The notes under the pieces were generated by a model. The model searched no databases and had not been told where the DNA came from. It was given only the letters and a program-made list of their open reading frames with translations. Below, piece by piece: positions 31,919 to 40,145 of a stretch of DNA of 64,000 nucleotides; the stretch's first letter is position 1; every line of letters begins with the position of its first letter. Origin of the DNA: Sulfobacillus thermotolerans (GTDB lineage Bacteria; Bacillota; Sulfobacillia; Sulfobacillales; Sulfobacillaceae); contig CP019454.1 in the NCBI GenBank assembly GCA_002951815.1, positions 2,728,001 through 2,792,000 on the forward strand, in the 5' to 3' direction. A program made the translations under genes and the position numbers.

Positions 31919-33391
31919 TTATTCGAGCGAAGCCATATCTCCCTCGGGCAATAAGGAAGACATCTGCCCCGGCGAAGCCGCTTCCACCTTCCGCAACTTG
32001 CGCTCAATCGCGCGAGAACGAGTCCGGGCCGTATCAATGGTATTGCTCGCCTCTTGCAGTTTCTTTTGAGTCTTTTCGAGAATATCGCCAAATTTTCCAA
32101 ACTCCGTTTTAACCGCCCCTAAGAGAGACCAGACCTCACTCGAGCGTTTTTGAATGGCCAAGGTGCGAAAACCCATTTGCAAACTATTTAACAGCGCTGT
32201 AATCGTCGTGGGTCCTGTGACAATGACATGGTACTCACGCTGCAACGCTTCCCACAGACCCGGCCGTCGTAGAATTTCCGCGAATAATCCTTCCACAGGA
32301 AGGAACATAATAGCAAAGTCGGTCGTGTGCGGAGGATTGATATATTTTTCTTGAATGGCTTTGGCTTCGTGGCGGACCCGATTTTCCAACATTTTTCCTG
32401 CTTCTGCCGCCACGGCTCCGTCTCCCGCTTCTTCGGCATCTATTAATTTTTGGTAATCCTCCAAAGGAAACTTGGAATCAATCGGCAACAGGACTTGCTT
32501 GGCATCATCATCTTTTCCAGGCAGAAAAATGGCAAAGTCGACACGCTCAAGCGAGTCGGCCCGTACCGCGACGCTGCGCTGATATTGTTCGGGACTAAGC
32601 GTTTGTTCTAAAATATTGTCTAACTGAATTTCTCCCAACGTCCCGCGCGTTTTTACGTTAGCCAATACCTTCTTAAGATCCCCAACTCCCGAGGCTAGAG
32701 TCTGCATTTCCCCTAGTCCTCTATGCACTTGTTCTAAGCGTTCGCTGACCAGCTTAAACGATTCTCCGAGCCGTTGTTCCAGCGTTTGATGGAGCTTTTC
32801 GTCAACAGTGACCCGCATTTGTTCGAGTTGTTTATGATTATCATCCTGCAGTGCTGAGAGTTTCTGCTCCACAGTCGTGCGCATCTGTTCCAGTTTTGTT
32901 TCATTCACCGTCGTCAAATCCGCCAGTTGCTTGGAAAACGAATCTAAAAGCCCTTTATGTTGGGTAGCCATTTCACTAATGGCCGCAATCGTGTTTCGGT
33001 AATGAGCTTCCAACGCGTGCTGAGTCTCTTGGGAGAACGCATCAAAGCGATTCTTATCCGCATTGGCCAAACTTGACAAATTACTGGCGATAAACTGTTG
33101 AATGGTATGGAGAGCTGTTTGTTGCTCCCTAGACTTATCACCTAAGGTCACAAGCAGCGCATCCCCTAAACGCTTGAAGGCCTCTTGCACTTCTTCACGA
33201 GTCATTTTTGCGCTAAGGCTGGACTCTGTGCGTCCTTGCATCAATTCCTCACGAACGGCTTGCTCAACCGTCTTTTGATATTGCCCGATCACATCAGACA
33301 CACGACCGTTCGAACGATATTGGATTAAGAGAATCATAACGATAATGTTTAACACTAACGACAGAGCCACTAAAATTTCCAAGAGCGTCAA
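31919..33391 (-). CDS. rmuC: DNA recombination protein RmuC
   Basis: A 490-residue RmuC family protein. A single N-terminal membrane segment (LLEILVALSLVLNIIVMILLI) is followed by a long coiled coil (about residues 90-240, rich in Q/E/K/L). The conserved nuclease-like domain then has KVLANVKTRGTLGEIQLDNILEQ, LPIDSKFPLEDYQ and VFFLPVEGL-like IMFLPVEGLFAEIL. RmuC limits inversions at short repeats; its mechanism is not settled. The start is TTG at 33391, supported by GAGGGGAAATCGA. It is a single-gene unit. Confidence 0.94.
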   Translation of the reverse strand: MTLLEILVALSLVLNIIVMILLIQYRSNGRVSDVIGQYQKTVEQAVREELMQGRTESSLSAKMTREEVQEAFKRLGDALLVTLGDKSREQQTALHTIQQFIASNLSSLANADKNRFDAFSQETQHALEAHYRNTIAAISEMATQHKGLLDSFSKQLADLTTVNETKLEQMRTTVEQKLSALQDDNHKQLEQMRVTVDEKLHQTLEQRLGESFKLVSERLEQVHRGLGEMQTLASGVGDLKKVLANVKTRGTLGEIQLDNILEQTLSPEQYQRSVAVRADSLERVDFAIFLPGKDDDAKQVLLPIDSKFPLEDYQKLIDAEEAGDGAVAAEAGKMLENRVRHEAKAIQEKYINPPHTTDFAIMFLPVEGLFAEILRRPGLWEALQREYHVIVTGPTTITALLNSLQMGFRTLAIQKRSSEVWSLLGAVKTEFGKFGDILEKTQKKLQEASNTIDTARTRSRAIERKLRKVEAASPGQMSSLLPEGDMASLE

Positions 33392-33637: not shown

Positions 33638-34702
33638 ATGAATATGGGGTCTCCCTTACCACCCGCATTTGCTGAAGCGGAATTTTACCATATTTTTTTC
33701 GTGTTATTAGCTATCGTCGTCGCGGGCGGCCTAATTCTCGGTATCCGGGCATACCGTTTAGGCCACAAAACCATAGCTTCGCCATACCCAGCGGCTCACG
33801 AATGGTTGATGCGCGGCATTGGGGCACTATGGCTTTTAGATGGTCTGTTGCAAGCGCAACCGCTCATGATTACGCGTTTCATCGGCGGATTTCTTGCACC
33901 TATGCTGCAAGGACAACCTGCACCTGTTGAATCCCTAATGAATATTAGCATTCGGCTATGGGCTATCAACCCTGTACTTTGGAATGAATTCGCGACATGG
34001 ATTCAGATCGGCATTGGACTCACCATGTTGTTTGGAGCGGGCACTATTTGGCGTCAAGTCGGACTGTGGACCTCATTGGCGTGGGGACTCATTGTATGGG
34101 TCGGAGGCGAAGCCTTTGGTAGCCTGTTTGTCGGCGGTAGTTGGCTAAGCGGTTCCCCTGGCTCGGTCCTCTTGTATATGTTTGCCGCCATTCTTCTCCT
34201 CGCGCCCGCGACTTACTGGAATTCTCCCCGCGTGGCTAAGGTCTTAAGGCTCTCAATGATTGCCTTGTGGACGCTTTCAGCTTTTCTACAAGCTTGGCCG
34301 GCGGCCGGCTGGTGGCATGGTCAAAACCTCGCTTCGTACGTCTTGAGTATGGCTTCAATGCCGCAACCTGCCATCTTTTCTGCTCCTCTCTTTGCCTGGG
34401 CTAAATTATTGGGTCAGTCTCCTGCCTTATGGAACGGTATCTTAGTCGGCGTGTTTGCGGTATTGGCTGTCTTGTGGGCTCTCAAACCACGTTCTGGGTG
34501 GACGTGGTGGCTCACAGCCCTTGTGACCTTTGCCACTTGGTGGTTGGGCCAGGATTTTGGCGTGCTTGGTGGCATGGGAACCGATCCTAATAGCGGCGTT
34601 GTGGTGTTAATCGGACTGGTTGTCTACGCACAAGTCGTGCAACTCCCCTTATTCCATTGGGTATCACACCACGAACCCGCCGTGGAGCATTCCGCGTTAT
34701 GA
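33638..34702 (+). CDS. Polytopic membrane protein with internal duplication, SCO-operon paralogue A
   Basis: A 354-residue membrane protein with roughly 9-10 hydrophobic segments. It is built from two copies of one unit about 147 residues apart: LLQAQP (70) and FLQAWP (216), NPVLWN (111) and SPALWN (261), GEAFGSLF (157) and GQDFGVLG (304). GTDPNSG follows the second GxxFG motif. Gene 36456 has the same plan. AAGGGG precedes ATG 33638. The stop overlaps the next start as ATGA. I do not know a characterised member, though similar uncharacterised proteins seem to occur in actinobacteria from memory. DoxX/DoxD-like fold is an alternative. A role with the neighbouring SCO protein is inferred from context. 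Confidence 0.8.
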   Translation: MNMGSPLPPAFAEAEFYHIFFVLLAIVVAGGLILGIRAYRLGHKTIASPYPAAHEWLMRGIGALWLLDGLLQAQPLMITRFIGGFLAPMLQGQPAPVESLMNISIRLWAINPVLWNEFATWIQIGIGLTMLFGAGTIWRQVGLWTSLAWGLIVWVGGEAFGSLFVGGSWLSGSPGSVLLYMFAAILLLAPATYWNSPRVAKVLRLSMIALWTLSAFLQAWPAAGWWHGQNLASYVLSMASMPQPAIFSAPLFAWAKLLGQSPALWNGILVGVFAVLAVLWALKPRSGWTWWLTALVTFATWWLGQDFGVLGGMGTDPNSGVVVLIGLVVYAQVVQLPLFHWVSHHEPAVEHSAL

Positions 34703-36408
34703 GTACGGCCAAGAAAAAACTCGTATGGCCTTGGATCGCTGCCCCAGCAGCGATTGTGGCCGGATTGGCAGCCGGTCATTTTTGGGTCTCTTCGCCCTCC
34801 ACGACCCTATCAGCGGCGGCTACCCAGGCATTAGCCGCCGACGGCATGACGCCGGTCAACCATGTGCCGGCCCCTAATTTTCACCTGGTCAACCAAAACG
34901 GCCAGCCTGTCAGCTTAAGTCAATTTCGCGGTAAAGCGGTCGTCATGACCTTTTTGGACCCAGTATGCTGGTGGGATTGTCCGATCGATGCCCAAGAAAT
35001 GGTCGACATGAATCACCTCCTTGGGCCCAAACTAGCGTCACGTGTGGCATTGGTCGCGGTCGTGGCAAACCCCGAGTACCATAGTGTGTCGGATGTCCAG
35101 GCGTTTGACAAAGAGCATGGGTTAACCCATGTGAAAAACTGGACGTATGCCACCTCATCGTCGTTGAGCACGCTGAAAACCATTTGGCATCAATATTATG
35201 AGTACGTGAATGCCCCGAAATATGGCATGGTCCAACACACTGATGTGTTTTGGCTCATTTCGCCCAATGGGCAAGAGGAATGGCTCAGCGATCCCAGCGC
35301 ACGTACGCAATATATTGGAGGCACGTCCCAATTGCTGGCCACGTACGTCGCCAAAATGTTACATGCGTCGTTGCCGACCCAGACTCTAAAAACTTCCAGC
35401 CTGGGGCACGGGATATGGCAGCCCATGGGCCTATCATACGCCTTAAGCGCACAAAATCTTTCCCAAGGATGGGCTCTTTACCCCTATCAAGGGTACCGCG
35501 GCTTAGGTCACACCGTCAGTGGCGGTTCAACATGGCATTTTGCCACGCCCTTAGGAGAAACAGAGCGAGGCGGCATCGAGATTAATAGTCTCAATCCCTC
35601 CACCGCTTGGTTGATGATTGGTGCGTATGGACTACAACCGGACCCTATGGTCCGCGTGACCACCAACAGCGGAGCCTCGTGGAGCACGCCATGGCCGGTA
35701 CCGGGGGCGATTCCCCCAGAAGCCATTCACCCTCTGGCAGCGACCTCATCTAACTCTGCCTGGATATTGGCTAATCACAAGCTTTTAGAGACACAAAATC
35801 AGGGTCAAAACTGGACCACCGTCGCATCACATGCCCCCTGGGTAAAAGATGAAACGCTTTCTGCTCAGACTGCCCAGTCGCTGTGGGTCACGGGAATGGA
35901 TAAAGCCAGTCACCACGTCTCTATTTGGCATTACACCCATGGTTGGCATGCAGTGTCCGTGCCAGTCCCAACCGCATGGAACGGTTTAGGGGTCGTTGCT
36001 TCAGCCCCCGAGTGGAGCTCGTCTACAGACGGGGGCATGGCGTTATCCGTCACCATTCACGGCCGTCAATCCGTCGTGTGGGATGCCACAACCAATGCTG
36101 GGGCCTCATGGCATTTGGTCTCACCCACGGCGACCATTACCGGCAACCCTGCGGCGAGTGTGCGTGCCGACGGCAACACCGTCTACGCGTTGCAAAAAAA
36201 TGGCTCGCAAACTCAAGTCATCTCATGGCAACCGGGGCAGACAACGTGGACCCCTGTGGGCACTCCACTGCCGAATCAGCAAGCGGGCGTAGCATTGGCG
36301 GTGCCCTCTTCGGGCATTCTTTGGGTAATGAGCCCGGATTCTCCGGTTCCCGTTGTCTGGACAAGTACCAACAACGGCGCAACATGGGTTAAATCGGGCG
36401 CTGTGTAA
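34699..36408 (+). CDS. SCO1/SenC thioredoxin-fold protein fused to BNR/YCF48-like propeller
   Basis: A 569-residue exported or membrane-anchored fusion. Residues 8-30 form one membrane segment. Residues about 55-222 are a SCO1/SenC domain with the copper set intact: Cys90 and Cys94 (CWWDC, the CxxxC motif) and His180 (QHTDVFWLISPNG). From about 235 to the end four Asp-box (BNR) motifs recur: TTNSGASW (321), TQNQGQNW (365), TTNAGASW (464), STNNGATW (556), implying a beta-propeller. SCO proteins deliver copper to, or reduce, the CuA site of cytochrome oxidases. No oxidase gene is present here. ATG 34699 lies in an ATGA overlap with the upstream gene. I do not recall this exact fusion being described. 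Confidence 0.85.
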   Translation: MSTAKKKLVWPWIAAPAAIVAGLAAGHFWVSSPSTTLSAAATQALAADGMTPVNHVPAPNFHLVNQNGQPVSLSQFRGKAVVMTFLDPVCWWDCPIDAQEMVDMNHLLGPKLASRVALVAVVANPEYHSVSDVQAFDKEHGLTHVKNWTYATSSSLSTLKTIWHQYYEYVNAPKYGMVQHTDVFWLISPNGQEEWLSDPSARTQYIGGTSQLLATYVAKMLHASLPTQTLKTSSLGHGIWQPMGLSYALSAQNLSQGWALYPYQGYRGLGHTVSGGSTWHFATPLGETERGGIEINSLNPSTAWLMIGAYGLQPDPMVRVTTNSGASWSTPWPVPGAIPPEAIHPLAATSSNSAWILANHKLLETQNQGQNWTTVASHAPWVKDETLSAQTAQSLWVTGMDKASHHVSIWHYTHGWHAVSVPVPTAWNGLGVVASAPEWSSSTDGGMALSVTIHGRQSVVWDATTNAGASWHLVSPTATITGNPAASVRADGNTVYALQKNGSQTQVISWQPGQTTWTPVGTPLPNQQAGVALAVPSSGILWVMSPDSPVPVVWTSTNNGATWVKSGAV

Positions 36409-36455
36409 AGATATCACGGATAAAACCTCATTGTGGATAGGAGGGACAACAAAGC

Positions 36456-37370
36456 ATGCCATGGCGCGAGCGTTTGCGGATAGGAACAGGCGCTTTATGG
36501 ATCATTTCGGGGCTACTCATGTTTCAGCCGCTTATCCGTAGCCCTCTGTTCTTTACCGATGTGCTAGCTCCTGTGGCTGAAGCATGGCAACCTTTTGTTA
36601 TTCGTTCGCTTTTACGCACTGGGGACCGTTTGTGGCTCACCGCCCCGCACCTCTGGCCTCTGCTAATCGGGGTAGGAGAAGTTTTGAGTGGCATTGGTTT
36701 ACTGTGGCATCCTACAAAATGGGGATGGCTAACGCGTCTAAGCGCGTGGATACTAGTGCTATGGAGCATCGTCGTCTGGGTTATGGGAGAAGGCTTCGGA
36801 AGTTTGTTTAATGGAACAGGCAGCGTGCTCGACGGTACCCCAGGCAACGCCTTGCTTTACGGAATTTGCACAGCCTTGTTACTGATTCCCATCGATTTCT
36901 GGGATAGCGGGCAAGTGGCCCACCGCGTCCGCCAAGCCGTGGGGTGGATATGGATTATGATGGCGGGTCTTCAAGCATTACCAGGCGCTGGATTTTGGCA
37001 CGGTTCAAGGCTAGCCGAGCTGTTTGGGCTCGTTACTATGAACGGGGCTGAGCCTGCATGGCTTCAACAATGGATTAATGAGGGAGTCATGTGGAGCTTT
37101 CATGATCCAGCGCTGGTCAATTTGCTTCTCGTCATCATCATGCTAGGGCTAGGTGTAGCGTGGCTTGTCAATTGGCGTTATGCTCCCCTCGCGACGACGT
37201 TATGGGTGCTATGGATTTGGATGATTCCGCAAGCATTTGGCGCCTTGATGACCCACCTGGCTCCCACAGTGGGGATGATAGGGCCTTGGCTGCTGCTTAT
37301 TGGCTTGGCGCGGCATGATCGTAAATCCCTGCGGCAGTCTTCTCCCGCCGCTAAGCCCACCATTGCATAG
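36456..37370 (+). CDS. Polytopic membrane protein, SCO-operon paralogue B
   Basis: A 304-residue membrane protein homologous to gene 33638 over its length. Shared motifs: GALWxxxGLL near the start, VVWVMGEGFGSLFNG (107-120; VWVGGEAFGSLFVG in the paralogue), TPGNALLYG, LQALPGAGFWHGSRLA (172-186; LQAWPAAGWWHGQNLA there). The second half again repeats the first about 147 residues on (PQAFGALM, 258), though more worn and without the DPNS motif. It lacks the 50-residue N-terminal extension. ATAGGAGGG precedes ATG 36456. Function unknown; it sits 47 bp behind the SCO/propeller gene in the same operon. Confidence 0.8.
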   Translation: MPWRERLRIGTGALWIISGLLMFQPLIRSPLFFTDVLAPVAEAWQPFVIRSLLRTGDRLWLTAPHLWPLLIGVGEVLSGIGLLWHPTKWGWLTRLSAWILVLWSIVVWVMGEGFGSLFNGTGSVLDGTPGNALLYGICTALLLIPIDFWDSGQVAHRVRQAVGWIWIMMAGLQALPGAGFWHGSRLAELFGLVTMNGAEPAWLQQWINEGVMWSFHDPALVNLLLVIIMLGLGVAWLVNWRYAPLATTLWVLWIWMIPQAFGALMTHLAPTVGMIGPWLLLIGLARHDRKSLRQSSPAAKPTIA

Positions 37371-37387
37371 CTATGAAGGAGAAGACT

Positions 37388-37933
37388 TTGCGTATGCGCC
37401 TTGGTCACAACGTCTCAACAATACTCATTAAGGCCCTCGGATTAGGCATTCTGATTGTCGGCTACGCTTTAATGGTCTCGGCTTGGGTGACCCGCGGTAT
37501 TGTGTCAGCCGATCGATCAGGATGCCTTGGGCCGCACATTACCACCGCATGGGGCCTCAGCGTATTAGGTATGATAGCCGCCCTACTCCTTATCTCGTCC
37601 GTTTCCTCGCTAATTCATACCGTGATGTCCGCATTCCTTCCCCATCAATCAGAACGGTTGCGGTGGCAAATAGCCCGAACGGTCGCTATCGTTTTTTTGG
37701 TAGGAAACGCCTTAGCGGGCCTGATTTGGACCAACCCGACTTTGGACTTATTTGTCGCCCTACACCGTCCCCTCCGTACAGAGGCTGACCTGTTGATTTT
37801 GGCCATGGGGTTTGCCGGAGGCGTGGCGTGGCGGACGTTATGGCCGAAATGGGCATGGCTTGGTCTAATCATCTCTATCATTATGACCTATATGGTATTG
37901 GCGAATACATTAAGTCGCCACGCATGGTGCTAA
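37388..37933 (+). CDS. Small polytopic membrane protein, last gene of SCO operon
   Basis: A 181-residue protein with four or five hydrophobic segments (LIKALGLGILIVGYALMV, AWGLSVLGMIAALLLIS, ARTVAIVFLVGNALAGLI, LLILAMGFAGGVAW, LGLIISIIMTYMVLAN). No family recognised and no conserved metal-ligand motif is evident. AAGGAGAAGACT sets TTG 37388 as start; ATG 37394 is nearly as good, whereas ATG 37373 overlaps the ribosome site itself. It follows paralogue B by 17 bp and precedes a hairpin terminator, so it closes the operon. Confidence 0.65.
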   Translation: MRMRLGHNVSTILIKALGLGILIVGYALMVSAWVTRGIVSADRSGCLGPHITTAWGLSVLGMIAALLLISSVSSLIHTVMSAFLPHQSERLRWQIARTVAIVFLVGNALAGLIWTNPTLDLFVALHRPLRTEADLLILAMGFAGGVAWRTLWPKWAWLGLIISIIMTYMVLANTLSRHAWC

Positions 37934-37964: not shown

Positions 37965-38010
37965 AAGGAGCACGGCGCCTAGTTTAAGCGCACTATGCAC
38001 GCGCTCCTTT
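37965..38010 (+). terminator. Terminator closing the SCO operon
   Basis: AAGGAGC at 37965-37971 pairs with GCTCCTT at 38003-38009, followed by TCCTGTTTC. A small GCGC stem may nest inside. It separates the membrane operon from the PilZ gene. Confidence 0.6.
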
Positions 38011-38124
38011 CCTGTTTCAAATGTATCCTCCTAACGAAGCATTTTTAGCAGCAATCGTCTTATGGTAGGGTCCATGTCATACAATGGCCTAAGTGACCAA
38101 ACTCGCCAAAAGAATGGGGTAAAG

Positions 38125-38703
38125 ATGGCACATTATTCGGTTTTGTCACCGGGGCTACCGGTTCAGCTGACCGTCGGCAGACAAACATGGCCGGCTACGG
38201 TGCGAGCTAGGCTGCCTGATCGTATCTACTTTGCGTTCGACGACCTTGTGCCCGAACTGTTTCAACATCCCCAGACGGCCACGGTACAGTGGCACAGCCC
38301 CCCATTAACGTGGCAACTGACAATTGAGGCTCAAGCCAGTCCCTTGGATGAGCGCCTTTTAACAGGTTTGTTGGTCAGCGCCCCGCGTCCCGTGGAACAC
38401 CGCCAGTTCCGCCGTTTTCTATGGCAATGGCCCATCCGCATTCAGTGGGGATGGTGGCCCCGCCACGTCTTGGGGACGACCCGCGACCTCTCGACGGCCG
38501 GATGTCGCCTGCAAACATCCCGCCCTTTGCCGGATCGTCAAAACCTAACGGCTATCCTAAGTGGGCCCACGCAGGTATGGACCTGTCAAGCGGCTTTGCT
38601 GCGACAAACTGAAGAAGCCGCCAACACGTGGACCGCTGTCATTTTGTGGATGCCCGGCCTTCAAACTCCCGAATGGCAGCAGTGGATTGCCCAGCAAGGA
38701 TAA
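38125..38703 (+). CDS. PilZ domain protein (probable c-di-GMP receptor)
   Basis: A 192-residue protein with a YcgR-like N-terminal half (SPGLPVQLTVGRQTWPATV, IYFAFDDL) and a C-terminal PilZ domain. The two c-di-GMP binding elements are visible: RQFRRF about residues 93-98 and DLSTAGCRL about 122-130 (DxSxxG). PilZ proteins of this type read out c-di-GMP to change motility or surface behaviour. ATG 38125 is preceded by GGGGTAAAG; longer in-frame starts at 38062 and 38074 are possible. No flagellar or cyclase gene lies in the window, so the target is unknown. Confidence 0.8.
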   Translation: MAHYSVLSPGLPVQLTVGRQTWPATVRARLPDRIYFAFDDLVPELFQHPQTATVQWHSPPLTWQLTIEAQASPLDERLLTGLLVSAPRPVEHRQFRRFLWQWPIRIQWGWWPRHVLGTTRDLSTAGCRLQTSRPLPDRQNLTAILSGPTQVWTCQAALLRQTEEAANTWTAVILWMPGLQTPEWQQWIAQQG

Positions 38704-38918: not shown

Positions 38919-40145
38919 GTGAAAAAACAGAAGTGGACAATGCTCACATTGATCTGGCTCATGATGTTTGTGGCCTACCTCGACCGTATTAATATTTCGG
39001 TCGCAGGCCCGACCATTATGCACTCGTTGCACATGAGCCCCGCCGTATTTGGTGTTGTGCTGTCATCATTCACCTTCGGGTACGCGTTATTACAAATTCC
39101 CGGCGGCTATTTTGCTGACCGGCTTGGCGCTCGAAAACTCTTAGTAATTGCCCTGATTTGGTGGTCTGTGTTTACGGGCATGACGGGACTAGTCTTTTCT
39201 GCAGGATTACTCATTGTGGTCCGAACACTATTTGGTGTCGGAGAAGGGCTTGAAAACGGCGCCCAATTCAAGTTGATTGGAGACTTCTTTTCATCTGAGG
39301 AACGCTCATCGGCCAATGGCTTATTTCTCACTGCCATCGCCTTAGGGCCAGCCTTTGTGGCTCCCGTCTCCACGTGGCTCTTAGCGAAAGTAGGATGGCA
39401 TGGCCTTTTTCTGTGGTTTACGGTTCCCGGCATCATTATGGCGATTTTAATTTGGAAGCTCATCCCGACCACGCCAGACGGTGGGGTCGTGCATACCGAA
39501 GTGCGAAACAAGCACGGGCACCCCGCCAACTGGCGCCAGATTCTCGGTCAGCCCGGTATTTGGCTTGTTTTTCTGGCGTACCTCTTCTTTAATATCGCAT
39601 TCTGGGGATTCTTGGGCTGGATGCCCAGCTATCTCTCGCTGAGCCGGCATATCAATCTCGCAGCCCTGGGCTTTGATGCATCAATTCCTTATGTTGCAGG
39701 ATTTTTCGGCCTCATTATTATTGGATGGCTTGGAAACAAAGTGTTTTACCGAACCCGCGCATTGCTTGTCGCTTTTAGCTATTTGCTCTCCGGTTTCTTT
39801 CTTTACATGGCTTATAGCGCCCACTCTGTCAATTCCAGCGTGATCGGACTGTCTGTTGCTGCATTCTTTCTATTTGGCGGCTTCGGACCTATTTGGGCCA
39901 TTCCCTTGGATCTCATCCCCGATGCTTTACGAGGTACATTTACCGGCTTTGTTAATTTCGGTGGGCAAATTGGCGGATTTGTCGCTCCCATTGTCGTCGG
40001 CATAATTGTCAGCACAACGCATTCGTTTGTCGGCGGATTCTTGTTCATGATTGGCGGACTCATCTTAGCCGCTATCAGCTTGATCTTGCTGCAAATGATT
40101 ACCCGCCCCCGCATGGGTCACGCATATCAAGCCAAGGCTTCCTAA
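38919..40145 (+). CDS. MFS transporter, anion:cation symporter (ACS) type
   Basis: A 408-residue, 12-segment transporter. MMFVAYLDRINISVAGPTIM in segment 1, GYALLQIPGGYFADRLGARK after segment 2 and GFFLYMAYSAHS in the second half are typical of the ACS branch that imports organic anions such as glucarate, galactonate or phthalate-type acids. The start is GTG 38919 with CATAGGAGG upstream; the 215-bp region before it carries no gene that I can support. It is monocistronic and shares its terminator with the convergent MBL hydrolase. The cargo is probably an organic acid, not decided by sequence. Confidence 0.85.
   Translation: MKKQKWTMLTLIWLMMFVAYLDRINISVAGPTIMHSLHMSPAVFGVVLSSFTFGYALLQIPGGYFADRLGARKLLVIALIWWSVFTGMTGLVFSAGLLIVVRTLFGVGEGLENGAQFKLIGDFFSSEERSSANGLFLTAIALGPAFVAPVSTWLLAKVGWHGLFLWFTVPGIIMAILIWKLIPTTPDGGVVHTEVRNKHGHPANWRQILGQPGIWLVFLAYLFFNIAFWGFLGWMPSYLSLSRHINLAALGFDASIPYVAGFFGLIIIGWLGNKVFYRTRALLVAFSYLLSGFFLYMAYSAHSVNSSVIGLSVAAFFLFGGFGPIWAIPLDLIPDALRGTFTGFVNFGGQIGGFVAPIVVGIIVSTTHSFVGGFLFMIGGLILAAISLILLQMITRPRMGHAYQAKAS

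Follow-up and report, generated by a model that had tools for sequence, protein, structure and literature searches.

The window, that is, the whole 64,000-nucleotide stretch of DNA analysed here, covers positions 2,728,001-2,792,000 of the genome of Sulfobacillus thermotolerans, an acid-loving, mineral-oxidising bacterium; the genome is a single contig of 3,317,203 bp. According to the open reading frame calls, an operon of four + strand genes lies at 33638-37933 of the window (Table 1). It encodes a polytopic membrane protein (poly1), a protein that joins a SCO1 domain to an Asp-box propeller (SCO-propeller), a second polytopic protein (poly2) and a small membrane protein. An AGGGG Shine-Dalgarno sequence is located just 5' of poly1. 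The tight spacing of the four same-strand genes reported in the initial annotation was confirmed, including the ATGA overlap and the 47-bp gap. Its 17-bp gap before the last gene corresponds to TTG 37388, which is preceded by AAGGAG and is one of three possible starts; the other two, ATG 37373 and ATG 37394, leave gaps of 2 and 23 bp, respectively. The hairpin that had been described as closing the operon was also found as a fold. However, it was absent from the output of a simple terminator scan, and its designation as a terminator, which would not be of the textbook type, is therefore only plausible.

Table 1. Features of the four-gene operon (positions in the window)
Feature	Position	Strand	Description
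poly1	33638-34702	+	354 aa; N-terminal TM helix, then two tandem 4-TM repeats; cysteine-free
SCO-propeller gene	34699-36408	+	569 aa; 4-bp ATGA overlap with poly1
Membrane-anchored SCO1 domain	34699-35403	+	CWWDCP, Cys90/Cys94; distal His180
Asp-box beta-propeller domain, fused to SCO	35404-36408	+	
poly2	36456-37370	+	304 aa; 47-bp gap after SCO-propeller; poly1 paralogue
Small 5-TM protein	37373-37933	+	Outer-face (predicted) D47, C51, H55, H131, E137, H183, C186 conserved
Hairpin 3' of operon, possible terminator	37965-38009	+	-18.4 kcal/mol, z -1.6

The operon is flanked by genes for RmuC (31919-33391, minus strand), a weak PilZ-domain protein (38062-38703) and an MFS transporter (38919-40145), none of which has an evident link to it. 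The earlier statement that the operon lacks companion genes for an oxidase, a copper exporter or assembly holds for the open reading frames of 31.5-40.5 kb, but not for its relatives, which do have such genes nearby. In S. thermotolerans the companion assembly genes are dispersed over the genome, which contains five COX1 genes, the nearest about 61 kb away from the operon, and two SCO genes, each adjoining a poly gene. Two of the cox clusters, L102 (at about 900 kb) and L104 (at about 3121 kb), have the same predicted oxidase proteins, lie on opposite strands and are a recent duplication; a sulfocyanin-like gene is found near one of the two copies (9438-9959 of L104).

The SCO domain matches the Pfam SCO1 model PF02630 (E 1.9e-11, 44.5 bits, cut-off 22.8), and its metal ligands CxxxCP...H (C90, C94 and H180) are kept in 17/17 aligned sequences. 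This match and the Asp-box motifs S/T-x-D/N-x-G-x-x-W, of which about five were seen by eye and three by script, bear out the proposed SCO1/Asp-box fusion, with Sortilin/BNR Pfam matches of the propeller below cut-off only. The propeller domain of the window contains no cysteine and has no match above cut-off to the Ycf48/PSII_BNR model PF14870; the corresponding propeller of L083 reaches 23.8 bits (E 3e-5), below the cut-off of 27. In L083, L158 and Actinobacteria the propeller is a gene of its own, not fused to SCO.

The third gene had been taken for a paralogue of the first, and a phmmer comparison agrees (4e-28). Poly2 lacks the N-terminal helix of poly1 and has the C-terminal motif PQAFG where poly1 has GQDFG. 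The membrane proteins, regarded in the initial annotation as parts of a candidate undescribed system, showed no sequence match to any characterised family. Neither poly1 nor poly2 has a Pfam match, poly1 has no NCBIfam match, and the poly parts of 26 family members match no Pfam model, the DoxX-type PF07681 and its relatives included. Poly1, poly2 and the small protein do not match the Caa3_CtaG model PF09678, and PDB sequence searches with poly and the small protein gave no informative match. The AlphaFold model of poly1 (mean pLDDT 89.8) consists of a single N-terminal helix followed by two 4-TM repeats, and its N- and C-terminal halves match in an hhalign profile comparison (E 2e-12); poly1 is an internal duplication. 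Its top fold match is the membrane domain of GGCX, the vitamin K gamma-carboxylase (Z about 12 over 235-243 residues at about 5 Å), and its C-terminal half matches NACHO/TMEM35A with Z 8.9, on a scale where unrelated rows reach up to 9.2 and helical bundles can give Z 13 by chance. Because the Foldseek E-values of these matches are non-significant (>0.1), they represent a resemblance and not proof of kinship. The conserved motifs of the family are LDGLLQxQP, GE and GQDFGVLGGxGTDPN. Poly1 has no cysteine and no conserved histidine, which makes direct copper binding by poly1 improbable, and a function as a copper channel or thiol relay was judged unlikely for the same reason.

Seven poly copies are present in the S. 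thermotolerans genome, ruling out a single-copy reading, and four of them have no SCO neighbour. One paralogue lies near a CopA-type ATPase gene and adjoins TnsD/TniQ- and TniB/AAA-like (also tnsC-like) genes (L011 6104-12987, at 150-157 kb), an arrangement that looks like the cargo of a Tn7-like element; a near-identical copy in G144 (L080) suggests recent transfer. Another copy, divergent and shorter, overlaps a sortase-domain gene (L015 6063-7987, at about 1832-1834 kb). In several Sulfobacillus genomes poly carries a sulfocyanin (SoxE) domain as a C-terminal fusion (L037/L090, at 1274-3001 in L037; L081 3005-4720; L082 3560-5284; L088 3192-4880), possibly forming a membrane-anchored electron carrier for iron oxidation. 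A sulfocyanin-like gene is located 5' of poly in L023, and cupredoxin-like neighbours of poly occur in L023 and L029. Since most poly paralogues lack an SCO neighbour and one is beside a sortase gene, poly is not copper-specific; it is thus a platform used often, though not exclusively, with extracytoplasmic copper proteins.

The small protein has no meaningful Pfam or NCBIfam match, with stray Pfam matches in single members only, and a fold search with its model, a bundle with five long helices (pLDDT 86), found nothing above background (Z up to 6.6). Among 20 relatives, D47, C51, H55, H131, H183 and C186 are each conserved in 19 or more, and E137 is invariant; by the positive-inside rule all are predicted to face outwards. 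In the exception, L149, D47, C51, H55 and C186 are lost together and the remaining sequence pattern is retained, as expected if these residues form one site. In S. thermotolerans, a small-protein paralogue is found in a cluster with genes for a YtkA/FixH-like protein, DsbD_2 and a FixI-type Cu ATPase (L020 3009-7362, at about 961-965 kb). This cluster is conserved in other Sulfobacillus-group genomes, with the small paralogue between the YtkA/FixH-like gene and DsbD_2-FixI, and in G156 (L152) it also includes CtaG and lies near coxA/coxB.

Recurrence of the four genes together, on which the earlier proposal had been made to depend, was found in four Sulfobacillus-group genomes (G000, G143, G144 and G145), and G141 additionally has the poly2-small pair. 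Poly was detected in 42/42 genomes of the order. Among 119 genomes sampled from the phylum Bacillota only that of S. thermotolerans was positive, so poly is not a general feature of the phylum. Of the 58 SCO genes of the order, 14, in 10 genomes, adjoin or are fused to poly, where about 0.3 would be expected at random positions; this count was made by hand from tables and includes both SCO genes of S. thermotolerans, and its P-value of 1e-18 overstates independence because the genomes are related. Duplicate records were counted once (L022=L076, L023=L079, L025=L085, L037=L090, L038=L122, L042=L129). Several rearranged forms were observed. G127 has poly and SCO-propeller followed by CtaG. In G126 (L158), a Bacillota genome, poly-SCO, propeller, small, CtaG, DsbD_2 and FixI-type ATPase genes are contiguous on one strand, a run that joins two clusters separate in Sulfobacillus, namely the four-gene operon and the L020 cluster. 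In G139 (L087 3116-8817), a poly and SCO-propeller pair is found 3' of cydA/cydB on the same strand; these genes encode a copper-free bd oxidase, which is unexpected beside a copper system. In G146, poly1 is near cydB, and SCO-propeller was also found alone.

Outside the Bacillota, poly was found in 14 of 395 sampled genomes of the actinobacterial class to which L042 belongs. Actinobacteria carry a poly-SCO fusion at ten loci (REARRANGEMENTS), as identified by Pfam on L042 and by open reading frames and tblastn. A propeller gene lies directly 3' of the fusion in 9/9 loci with enough flank, and CtaG and/or coxA/coxB are present in all seven loci whose flanks extend over several kb (L121, L122, L123, L125, L126, L129 and L041). 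In a tree, the actinobacterial poly fusions cluster together, along with one MAG copy without an SCO part (L040), and the operon copies of poly1 form one group and those of poly2 another, suggesting that the poly-SCO linkage was kept along lineages. L083_SCOfus groups with a Bacillota poly without a listed SCO neighbour, so gain or loss of the poly-SCO fusion may have occurred repeatedly.

The intact SCO ligands, the poly1-type protein tied to SCO by fusion or adjacency, the propeller as the third constant part and the Cys/His cluster of the small protein, together with the linkage of relatives to CtaG, DsbD_2 (CcdA-like), FixI-type Cu ATPase and coxAB, suggest that the operon is probably the membrane-bound part of a module for copper loading and assembly of haem-copper oxidases (cytochrome c type). 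The module occurs in two bacterial phyla. The initial annotation had suggested either copper delivery or a redox reaction outside the cell; the CtaG, coxA/coxB and FixI-type ATPase genes beside relatives speak for copper delivery to oxidases rather than for an unspecified redox reaction. Because SCO genes are often near oxidase genes, SCO itself may account for part of the cox linkage. In the proposed mechanism, a FixI-type ATPase, encoded elsewhere in the S. thermotolerans genome, would export Cu(I), and the small protein would receive or hold the copper at its outer-face Cys/His site. SCO would then take the copper and deliver it to CuA of subunit II, or would reduce the CuA cysteines, the propeller may clamp an immature oxidase subunit, and poly1 and poly2 could form a membrane platform that docks SCO and the propeller on the oxidase. 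The broad role in oxidase copper loading or assembly is more certain than any single one of these steps. Tentatively, the module may represent a separate, as yet undescribed copper-insertion system for haem-copper oxidases, common to Sulfobacillales and some Actinobacteria, in which SCO and an assembly propeller are carried by a DoxX/GGCX-like membrane platform, and copper passes from the FixI-type ATPase to a new 5-TM family with an outer-face Cys2His3 site, which replaces PCuAC/CtaK.

The main rival to copper delivery is thiol reduction by quinol via poly, in which the module would keep the cysteines of subunit II and SCO reduced, with poly1 passing menaquinol reducing power to the SCO thiols. 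MauE/DoxX-type proteins are thought to pass reducing power to thioredoxin-fold partners, relatives of the module have DsbD_2 neighbours, and the poly1 fold resembles the membrane domain of GGCX, a quinol-using enzyme (Z 12). The lack of cysteines in poly1 speaks against a direct relay, since electrons would have to travel from quinol to SCO with no relay thiol in between, although it would still be compatible with quinone binding by poly1. SCO proteins are able to act as thiol reductants (PMC9145763), but a metal is indicated by the Cys/His cluster of the small protein and by the copper ATPase linked to the module, and we consider thiol reduction an unlikely main function of the module.

The poly-sulfocyanin fusions, the cupredoxin-like neighbours in L023 and L029 and the poly paralogue with a CopA-type ATPase adjoining tnsC/tnsD-like genes would also fit a role of poly in anchoring extracytoplasmic copper redox proteins (SCO-like, sulfocyanin) of iron or sulfur oxidation or of copper defence, not in oxidase assembly. 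However, the SCO-propeller forms adjoin CtaG and coxAB and not resistance regulators, and they also occur in actinobacterial MAGs not shown here as iron oxidisers, which makes this role improbable for the operon. It is more improbable still that SCO was simply recruited beside an unrelated multi-copy membrane family with no common function, as might be suspected from the four poly copies of seven without an SCO neighbour and from the lone SCO-propeller in G146. The SCO-poly adjacency is far above chance, fusions occur in two phyla and the same parts are re-ordered in several ways; recurrence thus largely refutes such a chance association.

SCO-dependent oxidase maturation is already known. The libraries and open papers searched gave no description of the propeller/polytopic fusions or of the poly and small-protein families. 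The published text on the S. thermotolerans Kr1 chromosome (PMC6803676) makes no mention of SCO1 or DoxX, and the open literature on SCO1 with Sulfobacillus, DoxX or Asp-box, judged mostly by title and abstract, contained nothing on the module. A 2022 review describes diverse and missing factors in copper delivery to oxidases (PMC9145763). How copper gets to CuA and CuB has been worked out only in part for bacteria other than Proteobacteria and Bacillus. The module offers candidate components with clear target residues for mutation, and two of these components are families that no database model covers. Its acidophile hosts live in metal-rich leach liquors, where extracytoplasmic copper handling is of practical interest.

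Several parts of the module resemble components of known systems. The predicted halves of poly1, with about four TM helices each, resemble the DoxX-like superfamily (TMEM35A/NACHO) and are paired as in GGCX, and NACHO is itself an assembly factor; however, poly1 does not match DoxX in Pfam, lacks the carboxylase lumenal domain and has other conserved motifs. Ycf48/HCF136, which acts in photosystem II assembly, is likewise an extracytoplasmic Asp-box propeller linked to the assembly of a redox membrane complex, but the sequence match is weak and sub-cut-off, and the propeller here is attached to SCO. As in the CcoGHIS/FixGHIS system for cbb3 maturation, a FixI-type Cu ATPase, FixH/YtkA-like proteins and DsbD_2 accompany the small-protein paralogues, whereas the oxidase genes linked here are coxAB; to our knowledge, the small protein is not part of the described CcoGHIS/FixGHIS set. 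Caa3_CtaG, the caa3 assembly factor of Bacillus subtilis, which acts tentatively at CuB (PMC9145763), is encoded directly beside poly-SCO-propeller in relatives and would serve the same proposed process, but it is a separate protein, and poly1 and the small protein do not match its model. SCO1/SenC (YpmQ) and PCuAC or CtaK act in CuA assembly (PMC9145763), and none of the loci examined showed a PCuAC gene. The module shares with SCO1/SenC the SCO CxxxC...H domain, the membrane anchor and the linkage to oxidase genes, and differs from it in that SCO is fused to an Asp-box propeller or a polytopic protein and is joined by two extra membrane families.
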